From contig QYRS01000011.1 of the NCBI GenBank assembly GCA_006503535.1, positions 2,108,001 to 2,172,000 of the forward strand: DNA of 64,000 nt, read 5' to 3'. The notes under the pieces were generated by a model that was not told the DNA's origin, did not search any database, and saw only the letters and a list, made by a program, of their open reading frames with translations. Both the position numbers and the translations under genes were made by a program. This document shows positions 16,179 to 47,200 of the stretch, piece after piece; the stretch's first letter is position 1; the number at the start of each line of letters is the position of its first letter. Source of the stretch: Arthrinium phaeospermum (taxonomy: Eukaryota > Ascomycota > Sordariomycetes > Amphisphaeriales > Apiosporaceae).

Positions 16179-19100
16179 CTAAGCAGCGACCGCAGCAGCA
16201 AGCAACGGGGGAGCCACATACAAAACCCCAAACTGCTCCGCCGTCTTCTCCGGAATGGCAGCAATATCAGGCAATCCACCACCACCAGCAACAACATCCC
16301 ACCCAAGGGAACTCAGCCACAGACTCACAAACGTCTTCACGTCCGTCTCCTCCCACACCGGCTTTTTCCACTGGTCAAGCACGGCATCATACTGGTCGCA
16401 GATCGCCTTTTTCCTAACTTCGTCTTCCGGGTCGGGCGGTAGTTGGTCTTCCAGCGACGGCTGCGGGGCAAAGAGTTGCGCATTGGACACCTTGGGCTTC
16501 TCAAAGTGGCGTTCCGCGTCGAGTCCGACGAGAGTGGCGTCTGCGACGTCAAAAGCGGGGTAGGGGTCTGGGGATAGAATGGGCTTGGGGGCGGTTATGC
16601 GGAGACCCATCATCAAGGGGGTAGAACCCGACTTTTGGTCGAGGAGTGGACCTGTGTCTGCGCTGGGCAGGGATGGGTCGGTTTTTGATTGATCTGGATG
16701 GAATGTCAGTGCGTCTTGTATCTCATGAAAAAGGAAGGGGCAATGAAAGCCGAAGAAGATCGAAGGGGTGACTTACACTGCGCCCACAGTCCCGTCGGCA
16801 TAGCATTCCACACCATCTCCATCTGCCAATTCGTCTCGTCCTCGTTGACGCCATCCTGCGTATACTCGATAGTAAAGGTCGACGTCATCGGATCGCTCAG
16901 CAACATCGGCTTGCTATATATGTTCGGCGGTGTTGTGACTGATCCATCGGGCTTCTTGAACTCGACGGGCGCCGTGGTCTTGTTTCCAGCGGAATCGGTA
17001 CTCGTCACGAGCTGGACATGACTAACGGGCATTTTACATTCGGCGACAAAGCAGAAGAGACCGCCTTTCACGGACCATGATGCGTCTTTCGCCTTTTGAG
17101 GATTTTCGTCTGCGTTCAGGAGCCCCGAAGTGGCGACGAAGTTGTGAGCCTCGTTTGGAGGGCGGGGGGCTTCCGCCTTCTCTTGGTCTGGAGTGAGACC
17201 GGATGCCTGGCGCAGACTTGCGGGAAGGACAAGCAGGTAGAACGAGTACAAGTCGACGATTTCTTGGGTGCCCTGTGCGGCGCCAAAGTCGATGCTGAAG
17301 GAAGCAACCCACAGATCCACATGCACTGTTCCTGCGAGCGGCGGTCCCCACAGGGTGAGGTCGGCGCCGATCTCGACAGAGATGTGGGTGTGGATGAAGA
17401 GGAAGTCAATGTTGAAACTAACGCCCACGGCAATGCTGACATGGCCGATGAAGTGGAATGGCTTGTAGTTGATCAAAAAGTCGGCAAAGGCGTCAAACCA
17501 AGCTTCGATGGGTCCGGCGGAGAAACTGGCGTGAAGACGTGCTCCTGCCATGCACACCTTGGGAGTTACGGCGAAATAAGCCTTGCCTGAGATGCTGAGA
17601 TGAGCGCCCAAGCCCCAGCTGATGCCGAGACGTGGCGGGTTGGGCCAGCCGGGTGGTACAACCATGGCCTCATGGTAGCCTCCTAGAGTGAAGACGAAGT
17701 CGCCTACTCGGTTCTTGTCGGCGTGGGGGCCATCAAACCAGTACACGAGCGCCATGCCGCCAGTGAGATGACAGTCGGGTGCCAGAATGTAGGATCCTGG
17801 GGCAAGCTGGGCCTCGACCTTGAGCAGACCGTAATCCGGGTCGACTGTCAGAGACATGCCGAGCTCAACATGTGCGAGTTTGACAGGTGACTTGGCAGAA
17901 GGAACATCTGCCACTGCAACGGCGAAGATGGCGAACTTGACTGACCCATTGCCAAACTGCACCAAGACAACAGCATCAATGGAGACCATCTGGAACGCGT
18001 CGACCTTGAGACCCGCCGCGGCCCAGTATGTCTTGTTCGCGGGCGAGAACCAGCCTCCCTGGCCCGGGTCCGTCAACGTCTTCAGTGCATCGAGCGCGCT
18101 ATTGGCGTCTTTGAGACTGATGGGCGCCACTAGAGGGTACTTGACGACGTCTTCAATCGCTGGCATACGTGCCGACGAATTATACCCGAAGCCTCCGGTT
18201 AGGCCCGTGATGTCGGCAAAACCAAGCGACACCAGTGGGCCGTCGAGCTTGGCAAAAACGAAGACGGATGTATAGGGATCCTCTCCCGCTTTGCTGACTA
18301 CGCCGTAGAAGCCTGCCGCCATGAACTGGTAAGGGATGTAGCTGATAATGAGGCCACCCGCGTAGTACCTGACACCATCGGTGTTGCCGCGACGGATAAT
18401 GCCAGCGATGGTCAACGGGGGCTTATCAAAGGCTGCGGACAGACCATCGAGGTTGAAGCCGACCTTGACATCCTTAAGACTATCAAGCGTCTTGATCTCC
18501 AGGTCGATGCTAAATCCGAGCAAGGCGAATGCCAGCGGGCCGAGGTCGAAGTTGGCGTCCAAGATAACGCTCAGGGTCTGGCCCTTGTACTTGAGACCGA
18601 CGTTGCTGACTGACAGAGGACCAGATTTCTTCTTGAGAGGAGCATGAGCACTGGGATTGGTAGGACCTGATGTTTCCTCTCCGGCAGGTGTCTTCGGCTT
18701 GTCGTCGGCGGCATTGGTATCTGACGGCGTGTTTCCGCTGCTGGCAGCACTGTCGGCAGACTCTTCTACCTTCTTGCCTGAGCCCTTGAAGTCGTAACCC
18801 AGAATGCAAGACTTGGCGCCGGAAGAATCGACGGAAATTATACCAAAGTACGACCCCGCGGCCAGCATCAGGTCGGCCGGGTCCTGCGTCTTGAACTTGT
18901 CCGCAACCAATATCTCATCAGCGCCCTTGAACGGCTCGATACTGTTTAGTTGTTCCAAGTCACCACGTGTGAAGCCCGCCTGACGGGGCTCTGCCTTGGA
19001 TTCCTTGGGCTGAGGAGGAACCTTGTCCTGCGTCCAGATATAATACATATCATCCAGCGGCAACTTGAGGTCCCCGATGAAGTCGTCCACATGGATCGTC

Positions 19101-21626
19101 GGCAGTAGTGTCAGATCGACTTTGGCCCTGAAGAGACGTTTGGAAGGCGCGGTTGGCTCCCAGTCGCTGCTATGGATCTGCGCAAATGTGAAGCCCAACC
19201 CTCCAATATTGATTGACGCGATGAGATAGAAGAACTTGACGGGGGCTGGTTTCTTCTCATCTGAACTGCCTGCCTCTGCTGTTACGACTGCACCGGTAGC
19301 GTCTTTGTCATCCTTCGTCTTGGCAGGCGGCGTGTTGTTCCCAACCCGAAGCTCCAGAACATTCGCGCCCTCCTTTGCCATCAACTTCATATTGGCAACA
19401 AAGTCAGGCAAATCCAATTCTGCAGTATCATGAAGCATGGAATGAAGGACGTCACCCAACGTGGCTTCTTCGTCCTGGGGGTTCACCCATGCCCTAAAGT
19501 TCCATTCACTGCTCTTGTGCCAGAAGTCGAGGGTGAGTACGATCGATGCGATCCGGATGCTGCCTTTAATGGTGAACTCGCTGGCAGCAGCTGTCTTCCC
19601 CATCTTCGAGTACGTGTAAGTGACGTCCAGATGGTCGACGAGGATCGACTCGATCAACGGGATGACGTGCTTGCCAACATCCGGGTCGAAGAACTCGAGG
19701 AGGGAAGCTGCGTAGAGGTTTTCGAGTGTTGCGCGGAGCTCCCAGTTTCTCGAGTCGGCCTCAGAATCCGTCGGTGCTGTAACGCCAGTGTCCTGGCCGC
19801 TGGGGACAACAGCACCGGCATCTACAGGGGCAATACTTGGCTTGTCTGTGTTGTTATTCTTGATAGACGCGTTGTCCTTGCCCTTTGTGGACTTGTACTT
19901 CAGGGTACCAATCAGAGTTGCTGCGGTGTTCAGCTCACGTGGGGACGACGCGCTGGCGCTGAGCCCAGCGACAATTCCCAGCTCCAGCGAAAAGTCGGAT
20001 TTTGCTCCCCAGCTATATGATGCGTCCAGGCGGACCTCACCGAGGTAGGGCTGAGGAATGGTAGGTTTGTCAGTGTGGTCGGTAGACTTCTCGGCGGCCT
20101 TGATCGTTCCCCCGAGTGCGAAATCTGTCTGCGAAAGACTGAGATATGCCCGGGTGATTTGCGAGGGTATGGTGTCCGGTATACTGTCAATTGTGATTCC
20201 AGGGATGATGTACCGGAGGTCGATGACTTTGGCAGGTTCTGGCTGTGTCTCTGGAGTCAAGACCTCCCATTCTTCTAATAGAGGAGCGAGACTCCAGGGA
20301 GTTGGTGGGCCAAAGTCTGTATCCCCCGATGTCAGCACTTGTTACTTCCGTCCAGAACTCAAAGGAGGTGTCGGCGTGATAATCAGACTTACCATTCCAG
20401 AATGAGCCCCTGATGGTTCCTGCTCCACCATTACGTTTACTCCATGTGTATGAGAGGAGGAACGCGATCGGCGTGGTCACTTCTGGGGCTTGACCAAATG
20501 CCGTCGTCGATATCTCCACGTCGAGGCTGACGTAGTCTAGTATTGGACTAGACCCTTTGGTTGTATTGAGTCTGACAATCAATCGTCGCAGATGTATCCT
20601 CGAAGCGATGCCATCCTTTTTCAGAACGTCGTTCATGAAACTCTCGAGATCAGACGATACAAGACCGGCAAGCCACTTAATGATGGCGAGAAATCCTGCG
20701 GTTTTGAGATCGGTGGAGGCTGTCGACACCTCTGTAGTTGTCGAACTCTTTGCGGGCGTCTGAATCAGGAAAGTCAAGGTCATCGCCGTCTCTGAAATCT
20801 CAATGCCAGTGTTGAAGAAGACCTTTGGCGTAGTGGTATCTTCAGTCAAGATGGAACAGATGGTGGTGAACATGACATTACCAGCGCCAATTGCTTTCAT
20901 ACCATTAGTGGTCTCAGCAAGGGCCCAGTTCTGCTTGCAGATCACGTCGGCTGCCTCGACTGTGAGACCCTTGAGGACTCCACCAATCAGTGTCTGTAGC
21001 TCTAGTATAGCGTCGACTTTGAACTGGAGGCGGATAACAGTCTGCGGAGACGTGGTGGAGGGTGCAAACCAGACTGCATTGCGAGTACCGCCCTGCTGCT
21101 GGAGCGTCACAGAGAGACCAAGAAGGCTCTCTGGGACGAATTTGGTCATGCTGGGTATGCAGGCACAGTCGAAGAGGGCCGTCACGGTCGTTTTGATAGG
21201 AGCCATTGTCTTGGACAAGGCACATACAAGCCACTGGCCATTGGGAGCGAGACCTCCATCGGGCAGTTTTGAATTGCTCTCTGGGAAGGCGTTGTCGAGA
21301 TCCTCCGCGGTAGAGGTAAACCTCATCGACCATGGTGTTGCTAGATCGATCTGAAAGCTCTTGGGAGCGTGAGGAGTTTGGGCGTCAGGGAAAATGATGG
21401 ATACATCGGGCGTTGCGTCGATGCGCTTGAGCCATTTAATCATTTCATCATCAGTGTTGACTTGCGAGGTGTTGTTGGAGTCCGGTTTGCTTGTAAGAAT
21501 GAGAACTTGACCCGGGAGCAAAGCAACAAAATCGTCGAAAGGCGTGCCCTTCTGGAGAGTACTGATATCATCACCTGGCGATGGTGATTGCGTTGCACCA
21601 CTCGCGTAGAGTCTGTACTTCCCCAT
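16179..21626 (-). CDS. Giant DUF6603-type protein (1762 aa)
   Basis: Three exons: 21626-20393, 20316-16777 and 16693-16179, all phase 1, giving 1762 aa. The start is the first ATG, as the upstream in-frame codons are not ATG. Residues about 1280-1420 form the best-conserved-looking block (GDFVFTLGGYHEAM, PPRLGISWGLGAHLSI, YFAVTPKVCMAGARL, WFDAFADFLINYKPFHFIGH). I recognise this as the DUF6603 type, known from bacteria and fungi and without assigned function. Most of the protein is alternating hydrophobic/polar beta-strand-like sequence, resembling a very long beta-rich or lipid-transfer-like scaffold. Two low-complexity acidic linkers (near residues 555-600 and 930-985) separate modules. No signal peptide or transmembrane helix is evident. 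It is divergent from the next giant gene, which suggests co-regulation. Confidence 0.82.
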
Positions 21627-22720: not shown

Positions 22721-25700
22721 ATGGCTTCGGGCTCAGATCCCGTGCTTCAAGGGCCTGTTCTGGTGCCTGTTCAGCTAGATGCTTTTGTCCTGAACCCGAC
22801 AGTCTGTGGTGACGGGGGTGCGGACAATAACGACGCTCTCATCGCACCCATCACTCAGCCCAACTACACGTTCCTCCGTCTGCGTGACTTCCTGCTCCAG
22901 AGCGATGTGCAGAATCACGTCGACCTCCATGCTGCAGCTCCTGCGGCTATGAACACGCGGATGACCGACTTTGGCGGACCGGCGCCAAAGCCCCTGAACG
23001 GACGTTACGGGGTCTATCTGCATTGGACACTCCCGCGCTATTATCGAGTCGCTCCGAAATCCACAGTCGCAGCTTCTGCTCCAGCTACAGACAGCGTGCC
23101 CTCTGCACCCAACCCCCAATCTTCCTCAACTCTGATACAGCCGCCTACACGTTGGCTTGTTGTGCGAAAGCTGAATTTGGAAACCCTTGCTCCAACTCCA
23201 CCTGAAGGCGCGTTCCAGGAGTACTCCGCCTGGGTCATTGAAAGTGACCACCAGTGGGCGCTTTCAGATATCCCTCTGGCGTATGATCTTCAGACTGACG
23301 TGTCTCCATTTGTGGTGGGCGCACAAAATGGTGGACAGGCCGACATTGAAGAGCAAGCAGAGGTCTTCATCGGTCGAAAAATGCCTCTGGAGGAATGGAG
23401 CAAGGTAAAGGCCAGGGATCAGCCCCAAGATCCTCCCAACATCAGCCTCTTGCTCAGTGGGAATCAGCTGTTCGCAGACTTCCAGATGCACAACTCGAAT
23501 GTCTTCAGCATGCTGGACAATTTCCAGTACATGGATACCCAGAACCAACCTGCCTACCTATCGCACGCTGAGGCCAGCTATTATCTCATCGGATGGCACC
23601 GCGATGAGGGCGCGGATCCCTTCTGGAACACCTCCTCGGTACAACATCAAGATATCCTGGAGTCGCTCTCGATGAATCTTCAGCCTTTTGACCAGCATCC
23701 GCCTTCACGAACTAAATGGCTATCTGATCCAACTCCATCACGCCTCGTATGCCATGGAGCCATGTACAATGTCAAGTACGATCTCGATACCAAACCTGGC
23801 CAGCTTCTTGGGAAGCCAACACCAGCCGATGAGTTTTCGCAAGTTCTTCGAAACCAGGAACTGCCCGCCGTATCGGTGGGTACGACTCCAATGGATGCCC
23901 TCATTTCCTACTGCACCTCGAGGGGGGATAGCAAGAAGAAACAGCCAGGTGGGGAGAAGCCCGAGGACACTGTGTCGAAACTTGAGGAGGACATCCTGTC
24001 TCTTTACTCGCTCCTACACGCTCGAGATGATGGGGTTGAGGGCCAGAGGGAAGCAAAAGACACCATCTACAACTGGAACTTTCATCGCGCCCCTGGTGGA
24101 ACCTACTTTCACCTCTCGGCCGAAGACGAGGGCCAAGGAGTAGGCGATGTGCCAGCCAATGATGGCAATGTCAAAGAACCGGATCCCAAAACAAAGCAAG
24201 CCCTGCGGTTATTGAACCACAAGCAAACGCAACTGGATGCAGTGAAGCGGCTGGTTGCTCAGCGTCGGTGGGACCTATTTTCACTGTGGTGGAAATACGT
24301 CAGCGATGCCACGAGCCTTGATAGTCCCCAGGTGGCCAAGGAGAAGGCTGCGAGTTCAAAAGATAACGTTACACCACTAGTCGCCGAGCTCTCCGCGCTC
24401 AAGGAGTTTATGAACGACCTAGAGGGCGCAGTCAAGAAGGGGTTGGAAGATCCATTGCTGAAGCTGGCCAAGACTGGAGCGTCACCTTTCTTCTACCGTG
24501 CACGAGACCCCACGATCCTTGTGGGAGGCATCGAGAGCGGATGGTCCACCGACTTCGTGGAGAAGGTCAATGTCAGACTCCCCGCACAAGTGTTACAACC
24601 CGAGGACTACGGCAGCTCTGTGCCTGAAACGGACGCATTGGCCCCCTTTCAAAACCGTGTCTCGACGTCTCTTTCTGGGGAGTCCAAAGACGTGTCCTCG
24701 GTGATGAACACCCTTCTGATTGAGTTCTACACGCTCGAATCCCGCCGAGATCCCACAGCTGCACCCAACGGGAAGGCGTATCCTCAGTTCCACGATGATA
24801 AAACTCCTCACCGCGATGCACAAGCCCCGACTCAGCGGCAATGGAGAGACGATTGGGGTGATAAGCAACCTTGTGAGTTTCGAAGTTTTTCACTTTTCCA
24901 ATCACGATTGTGCAATCTCACTAACATGGGTTCTCTCGTGAAGGGTTCCCGTTGTTCGCAGAATGGGAGGTCGAGTACACGCACATTCCCTTTGAACACT
25001 GGATATTGGACGACCAGACAGCCCGTCTCTGTGCAAACCCCATGGCACGATACGGCGTCTCTCTCTACAAACCTGAGGACAAGGAAAAGACTACCCAGGT
25101 CCCACTCTGGGAGCAGCTTCCTGCCAAGCCAGACCAGCGGGTTCTCTCGGGTCGCGTGTTGATTCTGCCACAGCCCAGCTTCTCGCTGCAGGCCAAGGTG
25201 GCACAGCTCTTTAGCAGCACACCAAAGGCGATCTTCTACCGCGACGAGAAGGATTCAAAGAAGCAAAAGGAGGCAGAGGATGCAAAGCGTCAGTGGATCT
25301 TGGACAATCTCAACCAGCTCTCATACTTGTCCGCACCGTTGTCTGGCATGACGGAGGGAATCCTTACGCTATCGCAGGGTAGTCACGTGAAGCCCCTGAA
25401 CAAGAGCGTGGACCAAAACGGCCATCAGACTTTGAGCACCATAGCCGCTGCCGTATTTGAAGACGCCGGCTTCACGGGCGAAACACTGGCACTGATTGAG
25501 GGCCAGTCAGCTCTGACCCCTTATGCCAAAAAGGTCAACCTCGTCAGCGAAAACTTCTGTCCTTTCAAACCTGTTACCCACGGGCAGATGCGCTTTCGCA
25601 AATTCAACATTGTCGACAAGTTCGGACAGGCCCTGGCAGCCATAGACCCCATACCCCGACTCACCAACCCGTCATCCTTGTACCCAAGCATCAGCGACTT

Positions 25701-27234
25701 CTACGAGCCTCAAGTCATCAAGCAGGACGGCGAAATGTACGCCAACACGATTCAAAAGGCCAAGGAAGGGCAGTGCGAATACATTCAGATCCCTCCACAG
25801 ATCAACCAGAACGTCAGACTCAATGCCCACTTCGTTGTGCGCTCCGCAAGCGACGATGCCGACATGTACTCCGACCTGGGAGCCGGCACGCCTGTTGCAT
25901 CATGGCGCCCGGCTTCCGAGTGGGAGAACCCGGTTTGGGGCTGGGTCATCGTCAACTACGCCGACTACGGCATCCAGCTCTTCCTCCCAGACGGCACGTT
26001 CTATCGCGAGGTGCGCTTCGGAGGTCCCCTTGGGGCTAGTGTCCAGCCCAAATGGATTCCCTTTGCCCACGATCCAAAGCAACCTGAAGATTCAAAGTCG
26101 TATGCCCAGATGGACGCACTTATCGAGAAACTCGCAGATCCAATCTATCTCGAACGATTCTGGCACATGATCACAACAGCGCAGGATAACCTAGCAGCAA
26201 CTCCCAGCGCATACGCACAATTCCTCAACTCCATTGTCGGGAGACCACTCGCACTTGTCAATATGGGCTGGTCCTTGGAGCTCGATGGTCCAGCATTGGA
26301 GTGTCAAGCGGACTCTCAGAACACATTCCCCGAACGATATCTGACCGAAAACGACGTGCGTCCAGGAGCACCTGTGTACGAGTTTCAAGTCCGCCTCGGA
26401 GACCGGGACAGCCAATACGACGGACTTGTAGGCTATTTTGATCTATCAACCCTGGCCCCCTCAAACTCAACCTACAAAGAGCTGGACCTTAGCCACATCA
26501 ACACATTCTTCGCACTAGCCGAGACCAAGGAGGGCAAGAAGGTCCCTGTGGGCCCACCCCTGAACATGCTTACCACAAATACCTACCCCCGATTCAAGCC
26601 TCATTACGTATCCCCGGCCCTTCCCGCAACTCAAACCTCTCCCGTAACCCTGAAAACGCCCGGTGTCTACCAGAACGAACGAAACACCAAGCTCCAGGTC
26701 TACGGCGCCATATTGGACCCATTCACTGCCGTACATGGTTACTCCTCTTTCCTTCCCCCGAAGGCACTCGAGCTGCCACCGTGGACCTGGCAGCAGGCGA
26801 TGGACAGCATGACTGCCTTCTTCCATGCCGGGCCGCTCAACTTGGCCATGAATGACCTGCCTGGTTACGACCCGAAGCGAGAACTCACGCACACAAACTG
26901 GCGTGATGTACCGCCTCACTCGCTCGGTCTTCCTTCCCTGGGGGCGGGAGAGTGGAACTGGTTGCAGCCTTACGTGAAGCCGAAGTTTGCTGGTTCCCAA
27001 CCCACCTTCAACTCCTTTGGCATTGACAAGACGGGTGACTTGAGGAAACCCGGGTTCCAAAGGGGTCCGTATGTCGCGACTGAGGGGTATCTGCAGCTCA
27101 GGTCGCCACTCACTTCGAAGGCCTCGCAGACGCAAGCGCCGAAAGGTACAGGCACAGGGACCGGGCCAACTGGCACGGGTACAGGCACGGGTGCGGCTGC
27201 GGGCACTAGCGTGACAGGAGGGGGTACTGTATGA
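22721..27234 (+). CDS. Giant protein 2 of the DUF6603 neighbourhood (1480 aa)
   Basis: Two exons: 22721-24872 and 24944-27234, phase 1, giving 1480 aa. The intron (GTGAGT ... ACTAAC ... GTGAAG) restores a frame that reads KQPWFPLFAEWEVEY. The family is unnamed to me. Near residues 97-110 it has YGVYLHWTLPRYY and near 145 RWLVVRK. This resembles uncharacterised large bacterial proteins with an LHW.LP .. RWLVVR pattern (my recollection, not a search). The C-terminus is a Thr/Gly tract of GTGTG-type repeats, unusual for an intracellular protein and perhaps a flexible tether. No signal peptide or membrane segment was seen. It is divergent from the 1762-aa gene and convergent with the lectin gene. 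A structural or adhesive role is only a guess. Confidence 0.8.
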
Positions 27235-27662: not shown

Positions 27663-28723
27663 TTAGTTCGCAACAGCCTTGTCACGGTAGTGGGTGATCT
27701 TCTTGTTGTTCTGGGCCTGGTAGAACAAGTGGATGGTGCCATTGGCGCCAATGGCGGTAAGCTGGCTGAAGGCGTCGGGCTTGGCGCCCGGAGTGAGTCT
27801 CTCGTGGCTACCCCATCCCTTGGTCTTGTCCTTGATGATGCGATATAGTTCCATGTCCGCATTTGTGTAGTACAGGTAGACGTATCCGTCGAAGTAGGCA
27901 ACGGCGAGAGATGTGTTACGCTTGGCGCCGTCGGAGTCGCCGATGTCGATGGCTGTTGGAGGGGTATTATGGTCAGAATTTGGCTCCGCTCAGGATACAT
28001 TCAAGATACCCATCACTTGGGACACTTTTGCAGCATAACTTACTCTGGTGGGACTCTACTGTGTACTCCTTGATGTGACCTTGGGCCTTGTCCTGGTAGA
28101 GGACCGACCTCATGTTGGCGATCGGGTCGTAGTAAGCACCGAGGGAGCAGTCGGGGTCGATGTTGAGATTGGGAACAAATTGGATGTTGCCCGTTGTCAA
28201 CTCGTACTCGCAGATCTGGATCTGCCCAGGAATAGTGCCCCTACGCCAATGCATTCATGTTAGTATGGTAGTATTGCCACAGTCGGTGTCTTCCATACAA
28301 GAAGGGCAAAGAATAAAGGGAGGCTGACTGGAGGTAGTAGACCCATGCGTTGCTGTTGTCCTGGTTGGACGAGATGGCAGCTGTGGTATTCTTTTCCGAC
28401 GTGGTGTCGAGAACCTGGTAGACTGGGCTCACGATTGAGACATCGTTGAAAATTGTCTCCTCGGTGGGAGTCTTGGGCTTGTGCTTGGTGATGGCTACAA
28501 CGACGTTCAGACCGTTCAGAACGGCGGTGCCAATCTCGGACTTGACAGGGATGAGACCTTCGTAGCCATCGGCGGACGTAGCGTAGAAGTCCTGCGAGTC
28601 AACGCCAGTTTTGGCTGAGTTCTTGAGGGCGATGCCGAGGTTCTTCTGCTCGGTGACGTAGAAGACCTGTAGGCCCTTGTCATCAGTGACGTTGCCGTTA
28701 AGTAGGACCGAGATAGGAGCCAT
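27663..28723 (-). CDS. Fucose-specific-lectin-like beta-propeller
   Basis: Three exons: 28723-28329, 28240-28044 and 27952-27663, phases 2 and 1, giving 293 aa. The first intron has ACTAAC and GCGTAG signals, and the second has a GTAAGT donor. The sequence is a series of blade-like repeats built on an aromatic strand plus turn: LQVFYVTEQKNLGIAL, WVYYLQGT, RSVLYQDKAQGHIKEY, VYLYYTNADMELYRII..GWG and IHLFYQAQNNKKITHY. This fits the six-bladed fungal fucose lectin family (AAL-like, usually about 310 aa). Like those lectins it lacks a signal peptide. The exact sugar-binding Arg/Glu/Trp sets were not verified, so specificity is open. Its place between giant genes suggests it could supply glycan recognition to the cluster. 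Confidence 0.66.
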
Positions 28724-29084: not shown

Positions 29085-29200
29085 TGTCAGAAGTAAGAGG
29101 GTAACACCGTTAGATTAAATAGCAAATCTAGGGGTGGAAGTTCGGGGGATTTCTAAGTTTTATATATATATAAATAAAACGTATTAACCTTTATTTAATA
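29085..29200 (+). repeat. Left LTR
   Basis: This aligns with 40778-40896. Differences in the first ~65 bases are all C/T or G/A transitions, with the mutated base in the right copy. The first ~65 bases keep normal composition (TGTCAGAAG...GGGGGATTTCTAAG). The last ~50 are RIP-mutated (ending TTTATTTAATA where the right copy has CTGTTCAACA). Confidence 0.88.
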
Positions 29201-33827: not shown

Positions 33828-35000
33828 TTACGGAAAACGTTAATTTATTATTTATATTAAAAAAAAATTTATATAAAATTTATTATTTTTTATATAATAA
33901 ATTAAATCGAGTAAATATATAAATTAATTAATTATATAATAATCGATTAATAATAAATCGATAATAATATATTTATTAAAAAATTATTTATTAATTTCGG
34001 TTTTTTATTTTTTATTTATTAATATTTTAATATTATTTATTTCGTTATTTCGTTACGACGAGTTTTTAAATAGCGATTAAAAATTAACGTAGTTTTTTTT
34101 TTATATTTATACGGTTTTTTTTTAATTTTACGAAAATGCGATATTCGTTATCGAAATTATAAAAAATCGATCGTTATTTTTCCCGATTTCTTTTTTCGTT
34201 TTTATTTTTTATTAAACGATAAAAAAAAATATAAATATAAAATTATTTTTTATTTCGGTTTTTAAAATATTATATTATTAACGATTTTAATAATATCGAA
34301 ATATTTTAATTTTAATAAATTAATAAATTTAATACAATATTTCGATTTTAAAACGTTATAACGTATAATTAATAAAATAATTTTTTCGAAATTATTAAAA
34401 ACGTTTTTTATAAATGTATATAATATAACGTCGTTATTAATATTAATATTTATAAATATATAAATAAATATTAAAATTTAAATAATTATATATATTTAAT
34501 AATATATAAAAAATTAAAAATAATAACGTATATATATATATATAATAAAAAAAAAAATAAATTATAAATTTTAAAAAATATTTATTACGAAAATTTATAT
34601 TTATTTTTAAAATTTTTTTTCGAAAACTTATATAAAATCGATATTTATATATATTAATTTTAAAAATTTTATTATTTAATATAAATAATTTTTAATAAAT
34701 TTTAAACTTATATAATACGAATAAATAATTCTTTTTTTAATAATTAAATATAATATTATTACGAACCCCGAATTTATTTTAAATTTTATATTATAAAAAA
34801 TAATAAATAATTATAAACGAGAGTTATAATAAAAAAAGGTTTAAAATTTATTATTATTATTAAAAGCTTAATTTTTTTAATTTTATTATTTAAAATACTT
34901 ATTTATTTTAATATGAAATTATTATTAATTTATTATTATTTATTTATTCTTTATTATTTATATTATTATAATATATATTAAAAAAAATTTAAATAATAAT
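33828..35000 (+). repeat. Nested 1.2-kb repeat, copy B
   Basis: Same orientation and order of landmarks as copy A (AACGTTAATTTATTATTTA start, TTTATTCTTTATTATTTA near the end). It is heavily RIP-mutated with small deletions. Confidence 0.75.
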
Positions 35001-36429
35001 AATAAATTAAAATTTAATTAAAAATTATTAATATTTAATTTTTAATAATAAACTTTTAAAAAATATATATATTTTTTAAATTTTATAAAAAAGTTAAAAT
35101 AAATTAATAATAAAATAATTTTATTATAATAATAAAAAACCTTTTTTAAATTATTTATATTAAATTTTTAATTTATTTATTTTAATTCTTTTAATTTTAA
35201 TAAAATTAAATTTTATAATTAAAAAATTATCGATAATTTTTATAAATAACGATATAATAATTATTTTTAATAAATATTTTAATATTTAAAATTAAGCTTT
35301 TAAAATTTAATTTTTTTAAAAATATTACGAATATAAAATATTAAATTTTAAATATTTATTTTAATTTATAAAAAACCTTATTTAATTTATATATTAACTT
35401 TAAATATTTTATTTATAAATTTTAATAATTATTTAATATAAACATTTTTTTATATAACTTTATAAAAAAAGTTATTTTAATATTTATTTAATATATATAA
35501 ATTTAAAACGGTAATAATTATAAAAAAAATCTTATAATTTATAAATTTAATTATAAATATAAATATTTATTAAAATTTAAACCGTCGATTTATTTAAAAC
35601 TTTATATATTTAATATATTTTATATTTAAATATTTTATTATTAAATTCGGTTTTTAATTTAAAAATCTACTTTTTATATATTATTTTAAAAAAGTTATAA
35701 TTATAATTATTTTTTAAATTTTCGATTTATTTTTTATATTATTTATTTCTTTTTTTAATATTATTTAATTATTTCGAAATAAAATAACGTTAATAATATA
35801 ATTAAAAAAAATAATTATATTATTATTATTTATAAAGTGTATTAAAAAAGCTTTTATATTTATATTTAAATTATTTTAAAAACTTTTTATTTAAATATAA
35901 TAATAAAACGTAATAAACTTTTTAAAATTATTTATTTTTTATAACGAATATATTTTAAAAAAATATTAAAAGATTTTAATTATTTAAATTTAAATAAGGT
36001 AAATTATAAATAAATTATTATAATTTATATATTTATAATTAAGAAAATCGAACCCTTTTTAAAAAGTTTCGAAATAAACTTTTAAAAGCGAATTTAATAT
36101 TAAAAAATAATAAGATTATTTATATATATATATTAAATATTAAATTAAATATTACGTTTTTATTTTAATATATATAAGTATATAATAAATTTAAATAATT
36201 TTTATTTATAAATAATTAAGAAACTTTTTAAATATTTTTAAATAATTATTAATTTTAAATTAATTTATAATAGAGAAAAAATTAAATTATACGGGTATAT
36301 TAATATAAATTACGTTAAGAATAAAAAATTAAGAAATTAATTTCCGGTTATATATTTAATTTTAATAGCGGCGTTATAAATTAAAATAGTAAAAAATAAA
36401 TTATTATTTTTTAATTCTTTTATAAACCG

Positions 36430-37640
36430 TCCTATAGAGGACGTTAATTTACTATTTATATTAAAAAGAAAATTTATATAAAACCTATTATTTTTTATAT
36501 AATAGACTAAATTAAGTAAGTATATAAATTAATTAATTATATAGTAACCGACTAATAGTAAATCGATAATAATATATCTATTAAAAAACCATTCGTTAAT
36601 TTCGATTTGTTTATCTCCCGTCTATCGGTAACGACCCTTTCCTTTTAATTAGTTAAGTTAATCCGCGATCTTATTACATCGGCCTTTGTCGAACTTACCT
36701 AAAAGCTTTATAATCTCCAGAGCTTTATTCCCGTTTCGCATACGTACAAATACGCCTTTTATCGTCTAGTAATCTCGATAGCGGTCTTCGCCGCCGTATA
36801 CCTTATATACGATATATAGGTTACATACGTAAAAAGTTACGTATTATAGCAACTCGAGAAGTATATTACTAAACGCGGTCTCGAGTACCTTAAAATCGAG
36901 TTTATTAAAGGCGATATAATAATCGCGGAAATAGGGCTTTTTAAAAAATTAAAGTCTAGTTACCGGCGTAGCGGCGCCGGCTTTATCGGAATTGTCAAAG
37001 GCGCCTTCTACGGGCGCGTACAACATAACGTCGTTATTATTATTAATAATTATTATAGTATATATGGGTAGGTATTAAAATATAGATAGTATTATAAGTA
37101 TATAATAGTATAAGAGGGATTAAAGCTAAATAAAAAATAGTAATATATATATATATATGCGATAAGAAGGAGAGATAAATTATAAGTCTTAAGGAACGTA
37201 TATCGCGAAAATTTATACTTACTTTCGAAAGCTTTCTCCGAAAACTTACGCAGAATCGGCATTTGCGTGCGCTGATTTTAAAAACTTTATTACTCGATAC
37301 GAGCAATTTCCGATGGATCTTGGGCTTATATGGTACGAACGAGTACAGTGGTTCCTTTTTCGATGGTTAAACATAATACTATCGCGAACCCCGGGTTTAC
37401 CTTAAACCCTATACCGTAGGGGATAACAAATAGCTGTAGTCGAGGGTTATAGTAAAAAGGTAACTTGGTACTTACTATTTATTATTGCTGGAGGCTTAAT
37501 TTTTTTAATTTTACCATTTAAAATACCTATTTATCTTAGTACGGAATTATTACTAATTTATATTACTATCTATTTATTCCTTACTACTTGTGTTAGTTAT
37601 ATATAGTATATGCTAGAAAAAAAATTTAAATAAATAAATC
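36430..37640 (+). repeat. Nested 1.2-kb repeat, copy C (least mutated)
   Basis: Colinear with copies A, B and D but keeps much more G+C, for example CGGCCTTTGTCGAACTTACC near 36680 and CGGCGTAGCGGCGCCGGC near 36965. It is the best guide to the ancestral repeat. No coding frame is convincing. It could be an LTR or a non-autonomous element. I could not define terminal inverted repeats or a target duplication. Confidence 0.78.
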
Positions 37641-38775
37641 CTTTTATAAATTAAAATTTAAAGGTTAAATATAAGCGATAAAAAAAGTAGTTTAATTATA
37701 AATATTATTTTAAAAATTTAATATAATTAAAAAAATTATATTAATAATTATTTATTATTATAAAAACATTAATATATATTATTTTTAATATAAGCTTTTA
37801 ATTATTTTTAATCGAATTAATAAATAAAAATATTTAATCGATTTTAATTAAAGTTTTTTTAATTTTTTAATCCGCCGTTCGGTTATAATTTAATCTTAAT
37901 TATTAAACTTAAATTTAAAATAAATTAAAAAATATAATTATAAATATAATTTATTATAAATATTATACTTTTTACGTTTTTTATTAAATTTTTATAATTA
38001 TTATTAAAATTTAACGATAAAAATAATTTTAACGTATAAAATTATTTTATACTTTCGAATTTTTTATCGATTTTTAAATTTAAAAGCGTTATTTTAAGTT
38101 TTTTAAAAAATTATCCTTTTAATATTATTTTTATTAATATTTTTAATAAATAAAATAAAATAATAAAGGTTTTAAATAATAAAAAAAATATCGAAATTAA
38201 AACTTAATTTATTAAAAAAAATTAAATTAAATAAATATTAAATTAAATAAAGTTTATATATAAAATTTTATATTTATTTATAATTATTAAAATTTTTATA
38301 TAAATTAAATAATATTTTTATATATTTCCCGGTTAATTTTATCCTATTTTCGAAATAAAGCGAAAAATTAATTTTTTTTTTCGATATAAAAATAAACTTA
38401 AACTTTTTTTAAAAGTTTTTAATAATTTTTTATTTAATTTTTAAAATTCATTAAATTATAACTTTAATTATATAACTTTAAATTATTATAATAATTTAAT
38501 TATTTTTTTTAATTTAAATTTAAAAATTTATCGATTTTTTAAACTTATTTTAAAAATTTTTTCCGAAAAAATATAAACTTAAACTTATTACATTTAATTT
38601 ATTAATTACTTTTTTAATTATATTAATTATTAATTAGCGTTATTTAATTTAATAATTAAATTAATAAAAATTTAATCGATTATAATATAAAATATTATTA
38701 AAAAATAAAAATTATTAAATATTAAATAATAATTTATTTTATATATTTAAATATTTAATAATAATAAATATTATT

Positions 38776-39960
38776 TTACGAAAAACGTTAATTTATTATT
38801 TATATTAAAAAGAAAATTTATATAAAATTTATTATTTTTTATAATAAATTAAATTAAATAAATATATAAGTTAATTAATTATATAATAATTTATTAATAA
38901 TAAATTAATAATAATATATTTATTAAAAAATTATTCGTTAATTTCGATTTTTTATTTTTATTTATTAATATTTCGATATTATTTATTTTATTATTTCGTT
39001 TCGATAAATTTCTAAATAACGATTAAAAATTAACGCGGCTTTTTATTTTATATTTATATAACTTTTTTTAATTTTATAAAAACGTGATATTTATTATTAA
39101 AATCGCGAAATAATTAATCGTTATTTTTCTCGATTTTTTTTCGTTTTTATTTTTTATTAAATAATAAAAAAGGAGTATAAATATAAAATTATTTTTTATT
39201 TCGATTTTCGAAATATTATATTATTAACGGTTTTAACGATATTAAAATATATTAATTTTAATTAATTAATAAATTTAATAAAATATATTAATTTTAAAGC
39301 GTTATAATATATAATTAATAAAATAATTTTTTTAAAATTATTAAAAATATTTTTATAAATATATAATATAACGTCGTTATTAATATTAATATTTATTATA
39401 ATATATAAATAAATATTAAAATTTAAATAATTATATATATTTAATAATATATAAAAAATTAAAATTAAATAAAAATAATAATATATATATATATATAATA
39501 AAAAAGAAAAATAAATTATAAATTTTAAGTAATATATCGTGAAAATTTATATTTATTTTTAAAAGCTTTTTTAAAAACTTACGTAAAATTAATATTTATA
39601 TACGTTAATTTTAAAAATTTTATTATTTAATACGAATAATTTCTAATAAATTTTAAATTTATATAATATAAATGAATAGTTTTTTTTTTAATAATTAAAT
39701 ATAATATTATCGCGAATTTTAAGTTTATTTTAAATTTTATATTATAAAAGATAATAAATAATTATAATTGAAAATTATAATAAAAAAAAGTTTAAAATTT
39801 ATTATTTATTATTATTAAAAACTTAATTTTTTTAATTTTATTATTTAAAATATTTATTTATTTTAATATAAAATTATTATTAATTTATATTATTATTTAT
39901 TTATTTTTTATTATTTATATTAATTATATAATATATTAAAATAAAATTTAAATAAATAAT
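38776..39960 (+). repeat. Nested 1.2-kb repeat, copy D
   Basis: Heavily RIP-mutated copy, same orientation as the others. It begins AACGTTAATTTATTATTTA and ends AAAATTTAAATAAATAAT. Confidence 0.75.
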
Positions 39961-40777
39961 AATAAATAATATAAAATTAAAATTTACTTTTTATTTATTA
40001 TTATTCGAAACGAATAATTTTAAAAATAATTAAAAAAATCGATTCGAAATATTAAATTTATTAATTAATAATAATATAAATAATTTAAATAAAATTAAAA
40101 CTTTAAAATTAAAATATTTACGTTATTATAATAAAATATTATAAAAACGTTTAATAAATTTAATAATAATAATTATAAAAAATCGAATTATTTAAAAATA
40201 AAGTTTACGTTTTTTAAATTTAAATCGTTATTAAATTAATTAATTTAAAAAATTTTAATAAAAGTTTTTATTAAAATAAGGAAACGTTTTTAATTAAAAT
40301 AATAAAAAAATTTTAATAGCTTTAAAAAATTCTTTAATTAAAAATTATATTTAAATAATTATTAAGTTTTATATATTTATAATTCGGCTTTATTTTTATT
40401 AATATATTTAAAATTATTTTATTAAAAATTAAAAGTTTTAAATCTTATAAAAAATTTTAAAAGTTTAATTTAAAACGTATAATATTTATTAATTTTTATT
40501 AAACGTTAACGTATTTAATAATAATTAATTACGGTTAATATATATACGATTTATTAAAAAGCATATATTATATTAAAACGAAAATATAAGGTTTTAAATT
40601 ACCCTTTTTTTTTTAAATAAAACTTATTTATTTTTTTTAAAAAATATATTAAACTTATTAATTATAATTTAATCGTTATAAAATTAATAAATATTTTATA
40701 AAAATAATATAATATATTTTATTTATAAAATATAATTATCGGTTAAAATAAAATTAATATAAACCGGGCTTATAACT

Positions 40778-40896
40778 TATTAAAAATAAAAAAGTAATAT
40801 CGTTAAATTAAATAATAAATTTAAAGGTAAAAGTCCGGGGGATTTCTAGGTCTTATATACACATATAGGGTGGAGCGTATTAGCCCCTGTTCAACA
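40778..40896 (+). repeat. Right LTR
   Basis: Reciprocal pattern to the left LTR. The first ~65 bases are RIP-mutated and the last ~50 are intact, ending TAGCCCCTGTTCAACA. The mutated tract therefore starts and stops inside the LTRs. The outer half of each LTR is spared. Confidence 0.88.
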
Positions 40897-41581
40897 GGAT
40901 CCAGCCAGAAGTGAGATCTGAGAATTAAGACACTGGCATAGCATTCAGACCCGTCTAGACTCTTACCCTCCGCGTAAGAGGATCGGTCGATATGATGTTC
41001 AGCGTGGCGTTGTGAGTTGTGACCCCGCACTTTATGACCACACCCCATCCCGTCCCGGCGTGATCGAGCAACCCCGGAGGGTCAACCTCAAATCTAGCTG
41101 GGTCCACGATGCTCGGCAAATCGGCCTGCGTGCATGCTAGTGGCTGGCTGAACCTGCAGACGAGATACGATACCACTCACCGACATTACTGCACAGCGCT
41201 TCACCAAGCCAGACGGTATTAGGTATGGTGGTATCGATGCTGAACTGAGCGTGCCATCTAGACAGGCGGCAGGAAAGACCACAGAGCCAATTCCCTTCGA
41301 GCTGATTGCGGAGAAACTGGTCACAGTTTGCGGTTCTTGAGAGCATGTCGCGCAGCTGCTCGAATCAAGCGCATCACCCCCGGCGCCCCATAGGTCTTGC
41401 CTACTCATCAGTGCGTGTAACAACGTTGGAAAAGCCTCTCGCCCTGCCCCTGACATCTTTTCATCCAAGTTATAGTCATCAGTGGTGACCGATTTCCCCT
41501 GCACTCCCCGGTCAATGGTCCATGACATGAGCCACCCTCGCGCAAAAGTCAAGAGCAGCTTCATCACCTTCAACAGCAGCC
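40897..41581. other. Upstream region of giant gene 3
   Basis: Begins with the second GGATC target duplication. Base composition is normal. It contains no supportable gene and is the presumed promoter of the 1383-aa gene. Confidence 0.45.
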
Positions 41582-44500
41582 ATGGTCCTGTATCCTGGCG
41601 GCGGTCCAGGCAGGAGTACGGCCGTCGATTCCCCTCGACATCTGACAATTCGCAATACACGCCGGCTTGTCACAGCCGCGCAGACATCTCAGGAACTTCC
41701 CGTCTTATTTGGAGACGTCTCGGCAAATGCTGTCGCCACAGTCCAGTCGACAGCGATACCACCACCAACAACAACAGATGACGCAAAGGAAGGCTCATTC
41801 ACTGTTGCAGCTGCTGTGCCAGCCGCTGCGGATTTGGCCAGCGCGGCAAGCGACGAGGAAAGGCTAAATGCCAAACTCAAGCCTGGACAAGAGCAAATCT
41901 TCTCGTACTGGGCTCCAGGCCTCAAAGCCGGCAAGAAGCATGAGATACGCGTAACTCAGACCATCGATGGACACAAAGCTGGAGACAAGCCGCTACGGCT
42001 GGAGTCGAACCAGAGATTCTCCGTAGAAGCACCGCAGTTCTCCCTTCCGGGGGATGCCATTCACTCCACTTATCCACCTCAGGGATATCGAGACGATGCT
42101 CGAATCTTGCCTCATGTCGTTCTCACCGATCCTCACTTGCCCTGGGAGAGGATCGGGAGCCCCAAGACCGACGGCGAGGATGCGAAGGCAGGCGGTCGCC
42201 CGCGCACAAAAGTGCCCTGGCTCATTCTATGTTCCTTTACCCAGGACGAGCTCGCCCTACCTTCGGGGGCCTTGAACGGCACCGACAGCATCTTCACGGA
42301 CACGAGTGCTGGTCTTGTCAAACCTGTTCAGCAGTCCAACACGATGACCCTAAGCATGGGCATTGCGGATTTGTTGGCTACCACCAAAACTCAGACTCCT
42401 ATAACCAGGGAAGCCATCCCCAAGGAAACCATCCCAGGTTCTGGGGAAAAGGTTCGGGGAGACTTCGTTTTCTTGAAGAAAGAAATGTTTCTCAACTTGT
42501 TTTGCGATTTTGACGACGCTGGTGTCCGCCGGAATCCTCCGGTCATCAATACAGTTCCCTATGGGCTCCTGGCCCATGTACGGCATGTAAATGCTTCGGG
42601 AATGGCGGTGGCCGGGGTGGAAGACTCGGTCGTCTTCTCCCTCGTGATCGGTAATCGTGCTGGACCAGTCGGCATCACCACGCCGACTACAGTGTCAGTC
42701 CATCTCTTGTCGATTGAAGGTGTGGAGGATATGCCTCTCCCATTCGCGTCCACGACCGAGTACATAGCTATGTGTTCTCTATATAGCTGGAACTATACGG
42801 TGAATCCGCCTGGCATGGTCAACGTCCGTGAAACATTCACCAGCCTGGGCAAGACGCTAGACGTGCTTCGTCCCCCAGAGCAGGTCTTGAAGCCACTTTT
42901 GCCAGCCGATGGCCAGACAAGGTCAAAAGAGCAATTACGTGTTGGCGCCCGAATGAATGATGGGTACTCGATTGTCAAACACCGACTCCAGACAGGCGAA
43001 GACACGGTAGCTTTCTTCAGAGGGCCATTCACGCCAACTGTGGTGGACACGACAGCTCCGATATGGGATCGTTGCTCAAATTCGGGGCAGGATCTGCAGA
43101 TATTGGATCCGATACTGGGTATCATGGATATCACGTACTCCTCAGCCTGGCAACTGGGTCGAGTGCTGGCCCTCGGTGATGAAGGTTTCACCACTGCGCT
43201 GGGAAGGCTCAGGACGGCCATCCACAAGCCGGCAATGAAGGAGACCAAGATAGAGGCTATTCGAGCCATCAACCCGATGGCATACAGGGGCAAGCAAGAC
43301 CTTTTGTCCGACCTGCCCAGTTTGGTCCAGGGACTGGTTGATATCCAAACTTTGGGCAAGACGCCGCAGCACGTACTATCATCGGTGACCCCCAGTGACG
43401 ACGGCGATGATGACGAGGGTGCCGACGAGGGTGCAAGCAATGCAGATACGGCACCTGAGACGGTTGATGCCACTCAGTTTGAACCAGGTGGCGTGGAAAA
43501 GCGGTGGTTCAGGCGTCGTCTTGCTCGACGTGAGATCCCCGATCTGTCTTTCTTTTCACCTCGTATTCAATCCCTATATCCGGATGCAGCGGAGAAGTCT
43601 GCCGCGAGGGTGTCTGCGAGCACCGACGGTGGGGTGTACGACGAGACCAACGTTGCGGTTTCGGCAGACTGGACGGTCGTCATGACATGGTTACTGGGCA
43701 AGATGTTCCTCGATGGTGTCCCCGCGCACTACCTCATCACTGATCCTTCCCATTTGCCCGAGGAGAGCTTGCGATTCTTCTACATTGATCCGAACTGGGT
43801 CGAAGCTCTGCTCGACGGTGCCCTGAGTCTTGGTAACCACCGCGGTCGTGATGAAGATCGTGTTGCCATCAAGAAGGCATTCAACAGCCACATCACCTGC
43901 ACCCCGGAGCACACCGACTTCACTCCGCAGATCCCCACATATGGCTTCTTCCTTCGATCAGACCTTGTCTCCATGTACCCAGACCTTAGGGTCACCACAC
44001 TGCCAGCTCCAGATGAACTGCCTCCTGGATTTAGGAACCGTGCTCCATTATTGCGCCATACCATCATAGCCGACGGCGTCATGTTAGGACTGCTCGACCG
44101 CGCCCCTAGCTCAGAAATATTCACCGGCCTGGTCTTCACCCAGCCTCCACACCAGCAGCGATTTGCAGTTGGTGACGAACTAGATGACAAGCAGCTTATC
44201 ATCAACATCCGACGTCAATACACCACACCACCAGCTGGCCAGGAATCAGACAAAGCACGAGACCAAACGCTCCCAGAAACCATCACCAATACCCCTCTGA
44301 AAGCAGGCAGTCCCCAAAACAACCTTTTCACCTGGGGTTCCGAGGTGGGGCGTACTGACTTGCGTACAATGCGTATCCCGCAGTATGCAGCAAAGCAGCT
44401 CGAAACACTACAGGGATCCTGGCCAAAGCCCGATGGCTCCTCTGGGGGCGAGTTGGGATCAGATGGCACTCGCTATTTCCAGGACAATTCGGTGTCGTCG

Positions 44501-45733
44501 GCGCTGTTTGCCATGCAGCTGAGTGATTCCACCTACACTCTCACCGTCAAATTCAAGGAAGACACTACTACCGGTGCGAGGCTGGCATCGCTGCTTCCGC
44601 CAGGTGGTGGTGATCGTGTTTCTTCCACACCAAACACCAGTCCCGCAGCAATCAGTTTGAGTAGTGCCCCTTTGGCAGTCGCCAATAGCAACCCTCGCAC
44701 ATTGGGCAGTCTCAAGCCCCCAATTATAGAAAGACTTCTGGCGTCAGAAGATAGTGACGTTGCTGCTGCTGCTGCTGCCGCTGCTGATGTTGCCGCAGAT
44801 AGCGTGGATGAGGACGAGGGCTCATACACAGCCTCGGAGGGGAGACGTGGGGATGACCTCTTCTCACACCCTCCAAGCTACGCGCCACCTGTTTCGACTT
44901 CTTGTGGTCATGGCCCGCATGTAACGCGAATACCCGAGGTAGTAGCAGTGTCTGGCTCCCCTACCGAAGATGACGACAAGCAGGAGGCATCAGAAATGGA
45001 CATTTCATCGGCATCCAACGAAGAGGCAACACAAACCAGCTCCGGCGTCACCTCTACTGATACTGCTATTGCTACAAGTGTTTTGCCAATCGGTGCTTTC
45101 CGAACACCAGACAACCCCCAGACTAGCAGCCCCGCAAGCCCGCCTTCCTTCGACATCAGCATCTACACCCGCGGCGTCAACACCAACGTCATCAATATCC
45201 CCCAAGACCCGACTGTTCAACTGCCCCAAGATCTCATCTTCTCCATCCAAGCCAAGGACAACGTCAACGGAGATTGGCTGCTCATGGAACTCAGTTTGAC
45301 CATCCCTCTTGGCCCCGCCACAGCATACCCGGCAACCTACTTCCTCATGTCCCAATACGCCGGCCCTGGGGCCACCATGTTGAGCAATCTCCGCTTCAAC
45401 GTCCTCGTGGCGCTAGTGACTCAAGACGGTAAACAGGCATTACAGCTCCGGCTGCTCCCGAGAGCGAAGGAAGGGTACATTCCGATCAACAAGGTAGAGA
45501 ACATCAGCTTCTTGTTGGCTTTGGCGGATATCAATCGTTGGGACGGTAAGACTCCGAGGGCTGCACAGCCGGTGCCGAAGCCGGCGGCGAGCCCAAGAGG
45601 CGGAGCGGATCCATCCCCGCCGCAGTCCATGCAGTTATTCTTTCCGGATGGGGTCAAGGCGCAGTACTCACCGAGGGACGGAGTGAATTTGCCACGGACT
45701 CAGGAGTTGAATATTGCGGTGTTTTATGTCTGA
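41582..45733 (+). CDS. Giant protein 3 of the DUF6603 neighbourhood (1383 aa)
   Basis: A single uninterrupted 4152-bp frame from ATG 41582, with no introns. It begins MVLYPGGGPGRSTAV and has no signal peptide. The most distinctive stretch is near residues 725-750 (LRFFYIDPNWVEALLDGAL), followed by FFLRSDLVSMYPDL and GLVFTQPPHQQRF. I associate this with uncharacterised large bacterial proteins, from memory only. A basic patch (KRWFRRRLARREIPD) lies near residue 640. A low-complexity Ala/acidic region follows near residues 1055-1080, encoded by a GCT microsatellite at about 44760-44790. A Ser/Thr-rich linker to about 1190 precedes a compact C-terminal domain. An intronless 4-kb gene is unusual for this genome and consistent with bacterial ancestry. 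Function is unknown. Confidence 0.8.
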   Translation: MVLYPGGGPGRSTAVDSPRHLTIRNTRRLVTAAQTSQELPVLFGDVSANAVATVQSTAIPPPTTTDDAKEGSFTVAAAVPAAADLASAASDEERLNAKLKPGQEQIFSYWAPGLKAGKKHEIRVTQTIDGHKAGDKPLRLESNQRFSVEAPQFSLPGDAIHSTYPPQGYRDDARILPHVVLTDPHLPWERIGSPKTDGEDAKAGGRPRTKVPWLILCSFTQDELALPSGALNGTDSIFTDTSAGLVKPVQQSNTMTLSMGIADLLATTKTQTPITREAIPKETIPGSGEKVRGDFVFLKKEMFLNLFCDFDDAGVRRNPPVINTVPYGLLAHVRHVNASGMAVAGVEDSVVFSLVIGNRAGPVGITTPTTVSVHLLSIEGVEDMPLPFASTTEYIAMCSLYSWNYTVNPPGMVNVRETFTSLGKTLDVLRPPEQVLKPLLPADGQTRSKEQLRVGARMNDGYSIVKHRLQTGEDTVAFFRGPFTPTVVDTTAPIWDRCSNSGQDLQILDPILGIMDITYSSAWQLGRVLALGDEGFTTALGRLRTAIHKPAMKETKIEAIRAINPMAYRGKQDLLSDLPSLVQGLVDIQTLGKTPQHVLSSVTPSDDGDDDEGADEGASNADTAPETVDATQFEPGGVEKRWFRRRLARREIPDLSFFSPRIQSLYPDAAEKSAARVSASTDGGVYDETNVAVSADWTVVMTWLLGKMFLDGVPAHYLITDPSHLPEESLRFFYIDPNWVEALLDGALSLGNHRGRDEDRVAIKKAFNSHITCTPEHTDFTPQIPTYGFFLRSDLVSMYPDLRVTTLPAPDELPPGFRNRAPLLRHTIIADGVMLGLLDRAPSSEIFTGLVFTQPPHQQRFAVGDELDDKQLIINIRRQYTTPPAGQESDKARDQTLPETITNTPLKAGSPQNNLFTWGSEVGRTDLRTMRIPQYAAKQLETLQGSWPKPDGSSGGELGSDGTRYFQDNSVSSALFAMQLSDSTYTLTVKFKEDTTTGARLASLLPPGGGDRVSSTPNTSPAAISLSSAPLAVANSNPRTLGSLKPPIIERLLASEDSDVAAAAAAAADVAADSVDEDEGSYTASEGRRGDDLFSHPPSYAPPVSTSCGHGPHVTRIPEVVAVSGSPTEDDDKQEASEMDISSASNEEATQTSSGVTSTDTAIATSVLPIGAFRTPDNPQTSSPASPPSFDISIYTRGVNTNVINIPQDPTVQLPQDLIFSIQAKDNVNGDWLLMELSLTIPLGPATAYPATYFLMSQYAGPGATMLSNLRFNVLVALVTQDGKQALQLRLLPRAKEGYIPINKVENISFLLALADINRWDGKTPRAAQPVPKPAASPRGGADPSPPQSMQLFFPDGVKAQYSPRDGVNLPRTQELNIAVFYV

Positions 45734-46773: not shown

Positions 46774-47200
46774 TCAGCTGGAGCTCTGTCCTTTCAGGGG
46801 TACAAATTCCATCTTGAGATCTTTTGAGCCAGCGTCGGTAAGCATATCGCCGAGTGCTTTGACAATGTCGTTCTGGCTAGTGGGCGAGACTATCACTGAC
46901 ACGTCCCCCGAGACGATATTCCACAGGTAAAACTTGCCGCCCGAGCTGAAGAGGAATTGGTCGCCTCCATCGTCCGGATCCAGACGCATCAGAGGGGTGG
47001 GGTTATCGAGACCGCGGTCCTGAGCTGCTTCTTTGCCTCGTACATCGTCCGCCCAGTAATATCCAACGTTCATCACTTTGGCATCTGTAGTCCAGCCATC
47101 CGGCGCGGTGATGTTCTGAGACAGATCGGATACGTCAGCAAAAAGAAACAATGTCAAACTGAGCACTTGGGGATACTGGAAGGATCCTTACAGATGACAT
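46774..47200 (-). CDS. Small 116-aa protein next to giant gene 3
   Basis: A 9-nt first exon (47200-47192, encoding Met-Ser-Ser) is spliced by GTAAGG..CTGAC..CTCAG to exon 2, 47115-46774. The model gives 116 aa and replaces a longer frame that lacks an ATG. The sequence begins MSSNITAPDGW and contains DQFLFSSGGKFYLWNIVSG, a strand-turn-strand pattern like one propeller blade or a small beta sandwich. It ends in a Ser-rich tail. There is no signal peptide. I do not recognise the family. It is divergent from deaminase-like gene 1 and could belong to the giant-protein block. Confidence 0.62.

Follow-up and report, generated by a model that had tools for sequence, protein, structure and literature searches.

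Fungi keep lectins in the cytoplasm against animals feeding on them, as one source describes (PMC10512399), and Streptomyces coelicolor holds contractile injection systems in its cytoplasm, according to another (PMC12237407). Here we describe a set of three genes for very large proteins in a 64-kb window (the whole stretch of DNA that was analysed, of which positions 16179 to 47200 were studied) of the genome of the fungus Arthrinium phaeospermum, which comprises 48.4 Mb in 19 contigs. The genes, giant1 (D, with a DUF6603 domain), giant2 (G2) and giant3 (G3), all lie within 30 kb, in the order D, G2, a gene for a lectin-like protein, an AT-rich block and G3. We regard it as practically certain that the three families belong together: soil bacteria such as Streptomyces and Paenibacillus carry them as an operon, and in filamentous ascomycetes their genes are clustered.

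The closest described systems each share some traits with this set and lack others. Cytoplasmic fungal defence lectins and chimerolectins, as presented in PMC10512399 and PMC13324453, resemble a lectin-type protein of the window that has no evident signal peptide and would by analogy be stored in the cytoplasm, but they are single proteins, whereas the window holds three giant partners with bacterial relatives. The cytoplasmic contractile injection systems of Streptomyces and the tail fibres of such systems (PMC10066040, PMC12237407 and PMC12923769) are like D-G3-G2 in being multi-gene, in the cytoplasmic location that we infer for it and, as regards its bacterial loci, in having a protein with a constant base and a variable tip. 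In contrast to injection systems and phage tails, none of the six bacterial proteins scanned (D, G3, G2 and three products of a fourth gene) matched a PHROGs family; phage records gave no match to G3 or G2, and viral contigs none to G3. Outer-membrane barrels, ushers, LptD and ApoB share long antiparallel amphipathic strands with the model of D, but D has no evident signal peptide and its hosts include Gram-positive bacteria and fungi. The hydrophobic N-terminal stretch sought as a mark of an outer-membrane barrel was not found in giant1 by a hydropathy scan, which is not a dedicated predictor.

Only one of the three giants belongs to a named family. Giant1 matches DUF6603 (PF20248) with 496.2 bits against a cut-off of 27, as the initial annotation had recognized; this is a domain of unknown function, here linked to G2 and G3, which have no Pfam entry (for giants 2 and 3, no family at an E value of 1 or better). 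Two bacterial proteins each of G3 and G2 also gave no Pfam or NCBIfam family, and PADLOC models gave no match for six bacterial proteins (one each of D, G3, G2 and the fourth gene, and two from divergent loci). DUF6603 was not found mentioned in 5.39 million open papers, and a broad full-text search yielded a single paper, which concerns metabolite clusters. Because of this, and because the G2 and G3 proteins scanned have no match in Pfam, NCBIfam, PADLOC or PHROGs, we rate D-G3-G2, on sequence grounds, as a new kind of system, for which the searched literature yielded no description. In our judgement, a multi-gene cassette conserved from Gram-positive bacteria to ascomycetes is rare, the more so with very large proteins, two of them without a Pfam family. 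Sets of "hypothetical proteins" with one DUF become a single testable system, and with the compact operon in Streptomyces, the function of genes that are difficult to work on in fungi becomes approachable in a tractable bacterium.

The evidence from fungi comes from gene numbering. Searches returned 262 relatives of giant1, 236 of giant2 and 184 of giant3, of which the best 120 were used in each case; the named organisms read among these are ascomycetes. Locus tags were copied by hand from these hits and gene numbers served as a proxy for distance, leaving out Joint Genome Institute-style DRAFT numbers, untagged hits and a few oddly formatted tags. Two families were called near when the closest pair lay within 11 gene numbers, and this was so in 27 of the 33 series with at least two families. 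Nine of the 11 series that hold all three span at most 6 gene numbers. In two of the near series (K4K52 and MMC31) the G3 gene is located elsewhere. Five series (DCS, DL767, F53441, TOPH and CDD83) have the order D, G2, one unread gene, G3 (in DCS the unread gene falls between the tags DCS_00099 and DCS_00101), and other orders occur, for example in PT974 and EYZ11.

A first scan of bacterial genomes with the fungal giant2 found no relative, and bacterial relatives emerged by way of plasmids. When 72,556 plasmid records were searched by tblastn with the fungal giant3 and giant2, both matched the same eight records, from Streptomyces, Embleya and Paenibacillus (S. clavuligerus accounts for three of them), and the positions of the matches and the open reading frames (ORFs) place the two genes next to each other. 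DUF6603 occurs in seven of the 72,556 records, all seven among those eight. The annotation of two records reads DUF6603, giant3-like, giant2-like on the same strand, and on a P. polymyxa plasmid the first two genes overlap by 13 bases. Four actinobacterial giant3 proteins, used to scan genomes, led to 11 loci, and in every one the three genes are consecutive. In the family to which the Streptomyces genome G002 belongs, DUF6603 is carried by 65 of 297 genomes (82 match rows), and in the wider phylum by 12 of 396. We fetched the loci of 60 of the 82 rows, the first 40 and 20 lower ones. By profile, 44 of these hold all three genes, always on one strand and in 43 cases in the order D, G3, G2; among the remaining 16, L077 reaches a contig end that leaves only D and a part of G3. 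The operon is compact, about 8.4 kb in locus L010.

Fungal and bacterial proteins are recognizably related in all three families, with best blastp E values, against a small set of bacterial ORFs, of 6e-75 for D, 6e-35 for G2 and 7e-24 for G3. The fungal and bacterial giant3 profiles align over 683 columns with an E value of 9.5e-66. The sequence similarity of the giants across kingdoms is therefore secure, and the resemblance to uncharacterized bacterial giants that had been noticed from a few motifs was real. The initial annotation had also spoken of a system and had named lack of co-occurrence in other genomes as a reason to abandon that idea; co-occurrence was found, in the fungal series and in the bacterial operon, and the system is a multi-gene one. 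A chance neighbourhood of unrelated large genes could be suspected from the AT-rich block that breaks the fungal locus and from the six of 33 fungal series without visible linkage, but the linkage is repeated in fungi and takes the form of an operon in bacteria, and these data refute chance, to which we give next to no credence.

Since the genes have stayed together over a very large evolutionary distance, a physical complex is likely, and we think that the D, G3 and G2 proteins probably assemble together in the cytoplasm. A simple hydropathy scan, made without a dedicated predictor, showed no transmembrane-like stretch and no clear signal peptide in the five proteins of the window, in agreement with what had first been read from the translations; the highest 19-residue Kyte-Doolittle mean, 1.68, is in giant1. 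The same scan bears on the proposal, made in the initial annotation, of a spore, hyphal or cell-surface scaffold. A structural role would be in keeping with the large size and the beta content of the proteins, and the carriers include many spore formers (Streptomyces, Kitasatospora, Paenibacillus and filamentous ascomycetes). However, the scan, whose range does not extend to wall anchors, gave no evident signal peptide or membrane span, and presence in 65 of 297 genomes of one bacterial family is sporadic, so that we consider a scaffold improbable.

The predicted structures point to what D may do. The model of giant1 residues 640 to 1591 (predicted local distance difference test score, pLDDT, 80.2; predicted template modelling score, pTM, 0.64) is a long series of antiparallel strands, a beta-meander, and in its C-terminal half many strands are amphipathic, with one hydrophobic face and an opposite polar one. 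Structure searches with this model brought up pilus ushers, SlpA, LptD, porins and ApoB100. The model of giant3 residues 84 to 980 (pLDDT 81.7, pTM 0.70) had no credible match in structure searches. Because the sheet in the model is amphipathic, D may touch lipid or membrane. This would also be expected of a lipid-handling particle inside the cell: D would be its amphipathic sheet, of an ApoB-like or bridge-like type, covering or transporting lipids or hydrophobic metabolites, and G2 and G3 would be the partners of D. The match to ApoB100 (E value 2.5e-4) has a TM-score of 0.13 by query. The lipid-carrying particle is the strongest rival to a complex that acts on other cells, though on balance we find it unlikely: it leaves the lectin and a variable-tipped fourth gene with its repeated copies unexplained, and a patchy, partly plasmid-borne spread would in our judgement be unusual for housekeeping lipid transport.

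This fourth gene lies downstream of G2 in many actinobacterial loci and encodes proteins of mostly about 290 to 630 amino acids. The family is present in at least 26 of 75 loci, a lower bound obtained with a simple gene caller. The first 260 residues or so are conserved and the C-termini are very different; one Streptomyces has two copies that share 79% identity over the first 269 residues and do not align after that. Among the tips, one has a PLAT domain, two match beta-solenoids under the cut-off, and most of those scanned match nothing; others resemble, by eye, tail-fibre tips or a propeller. A constant base with a variable tip suggests that the fourth gene is a recognition part. Patchy, sometimes plasmid-borne cassettes of several genes with variable recognition parts would also fit immunity to phages or viruses, or a system of non-self recognition, but no PADLOC model was found for the D, G3, G2 and fourth-gene proteins (one each scanned) and Pfam gave no nuclease or NTPase domain in the scanned proteins; we hold this explanation to be very improbable.

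The window itself offers a candidate for such a part in its lectin-like protein, which had been described as a fucose-lectin-like propeller. A weak similarity to the fungal fucose-specific lectins (PF07938, the Aleuria type) was confirmed over residues 156 to 280 of 293. At 16.9 bits it falls under the family cut-off of 25.3 and does not establish a fucose specificity; in its place within a cluster of giant genes, too, the protein differs from that family. No sequence match in the PDB was found at an E value of 1 or better.

Taken as a mechanism, D would engage membrane or lipid through a large amphipathic beta sheet or barrel, which G3 and G2 would hold and present. A separate recognition protein would aim D: the fourth gene product in bacteria and, in the window, the lectin-like protein encoded between G2 and G3, a role suggested by the presence of a lectin or a variable-tipped partner. 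With no secretion signal evident in any part, the complex would be kept within the cell and would act on other cells once freed by lysis or by predator feeding. As a tentative proposal we put forward the full chain: a cytoplasmic D-G3-G2 assembly in which the sheet that engages membrane or lipid would be linked to a recognition protein that can be exchanged. That the complex is stored, targeted and membrane-acting, which leans on the analogy with the cytoplasmic systems cited above, is possible but somewhat doubtful. More doubtful is the broad picture of a cross-kingdom machine of three giants, with amphipathic beta structure, cytoplasmic, aimed by an exchangeable recognition protein and unmatched to phage-tail or injection families.

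Several observations weigh against this mechanism or against a strict association of the three genes. No toxin, pore-former or secretion domain was recognized. Among the rows listed, the fold matches of giant1 reach Foldseek TM-scores no higher than 0.28, and their VIA root mean square deviations run from 8.7 to 16.5 A; because of these values the matches are, at the level of predicted models, of a common arrangement and not of kinship. The hydrophobic face of D could be covered by G2 or G3. As a recognition part the lectin-like protein has its weak point in the low PF07938 score, and the one fourth-gene tip compared with it, the propeller-like tip of L074, showed no similarity. Where other fungi have a single unread gene in the place that the lectin-like gene takes in the window, that gene may, by inference, be the lectin. 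The fungal series ACHAPA, ACHAPI, ED733, FHETE, FPRO06 and H9Q69 showed no linkage, and in Paenibacillus sonchi (L005) no DUF6603 gene is annotated alongside G3 and G2. Finally, 15 of the 60 fetched loci carry a divergent DUF6603, with no recognizable G2 and with G3 at best marginal (three loci, E value about 1e-7).

The giants had been thought possibly gained from bacteria. Quick tree searches were made on reduced sets (34 and 37 bacterial and 25 and 32 fungal rows, plus 2 divergent rows), with fungal rows taken solely from the 120 best hits, so that distant fungi are under-sampled; long branches were flagged. In the giant3 tree the fungal rows lie on one side of a single fully supported branch, and the same holds for the DUF6603 tree, rooted on only the two divergent bacterial rows. 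The DUF6603 topology with the main-type bacteria together and the fungi outside outscored the free tree by 8.75 log-likelihood units (approximately unbiased test, p-AU 0.698), and a nesting of the fungi within the main-type bacteria is therefore unsupported; the suggested gain from bacteria was not borne out. The fungal rows are shallow relative to the bacterial ones, although sampling from the best 120 hits biases towards shallowness. One old transfer from bacteria is possible on these sequences.

The gene models of the window (Table 1) are predictions rebuilt from splice consensus sequences, and they reproduce exactly the sizes and intron numbers first given for the three giants. DUF6603, giant3 and the lectin-like gene were each found once in the fungus's own genome. 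The AT-rich block, about 12 kb long, had been taken for a retroelement that splits the locus; this was not supported, as the block shows only diverged repeats resembling the products of repeat-induced point mutation (RIP). Eight of its 12 1-kb windows between 29 and 41 kb have a GC content of 5.5 to 9.4%, and all 12 have RIP-like indices, with (CA+TG)/(AC+GT) at most 0.37 and TA/AT above 1. The repeat families have mostly three or four diverged copies, spaced 2.3 to 5 kb apart.

Table 1. Predicted genes and other features of the studied part of the window (window positions)
Feature	Position	Strand	Length	Introns	Exons	Remarks
giant1 (D)	16179..21626	-	1762 aa	2	21626-20393, 20316-16777, 16693-16179	DUF6603 at residues 972-1496
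giant2 (G2)	22721..27234	+	1480 aa	1	22721-24872, 24944-27234	no Pfam family; fungal and bacterial relatives
lectin-like protein	27663..28723	-	293 aa	2	28723-28329, 28240-28044, 27952-27663	
AT-rich RIP-like block	29100..40860	.				separates giant3 from the lectin gene; approximate borders, set by eye
giant3 (G3)	41582..45733	+	1383 aa	0	single exon	no Pfam family; fungal and bacterial relatives
116-aa protein	46774..47200	-	116 aa	1	47200-47192, 47115-46774	

Among the best 120 hits, the closest relatives of the window giants (P0121/P0122, P0001/P0002 and P0241/P0242) come from Fusarium graminearum or F. culmorum and one Colletotrichum species, with 72 to 83% identity. For another giant3 of F. 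graminearum, identity to the window protein drops to 43%. From these sequences, the spread of identity among the Fusarium giants possibly reflects transfer between fungi or old paralogues.

The divergent DUF6603 subtype was found in Streptomyces relatives (L058, L063, L066, a contig of 6.6 kb, L067, L068, L071, L072, L083, L085 to L088 and L090 to L092). In the loci that were read, DUF6603 lies beside other giant genes without Pfam families. We do not claim the subtype as the same system: its large neighbours align with the main G3 over only 61 columns with a probability of 12.5, and they gave no credible match to the main G2. One giant neighbour in L085 has a motif like PVRLETR. In L058 a giant neighbour has 1070 amino acids, and a gene for a Kelch propeller lies between two giants.

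Some further features of the bacterial loci and of the window can be recorded. At L053 (2239-12357) the open frame with DUF6603 runs to 3373 codons and lies next to G3 and G2. Six loci (L018, L043, L044, L057, L059 and L061) have a gene family upstream of DUF6603, several of its members with a "VGQGDC" motif; the member from L059, the only one scanned, matches the metallo-beta-lactamase superfamily. On the P. polymyxa plasmid L002 (1-2773), two annotated genes lie about 8 to 9 kb upstream of the operon, one for phage baseplate assembly protein V, at about 9 kb, and one for a GH-E family nuclease. In the window, beside the cluster, an ORF at 49326-50642 on the minus strand matches the OTT_1508-like deaminase family (PF14441, 66.8 bits).
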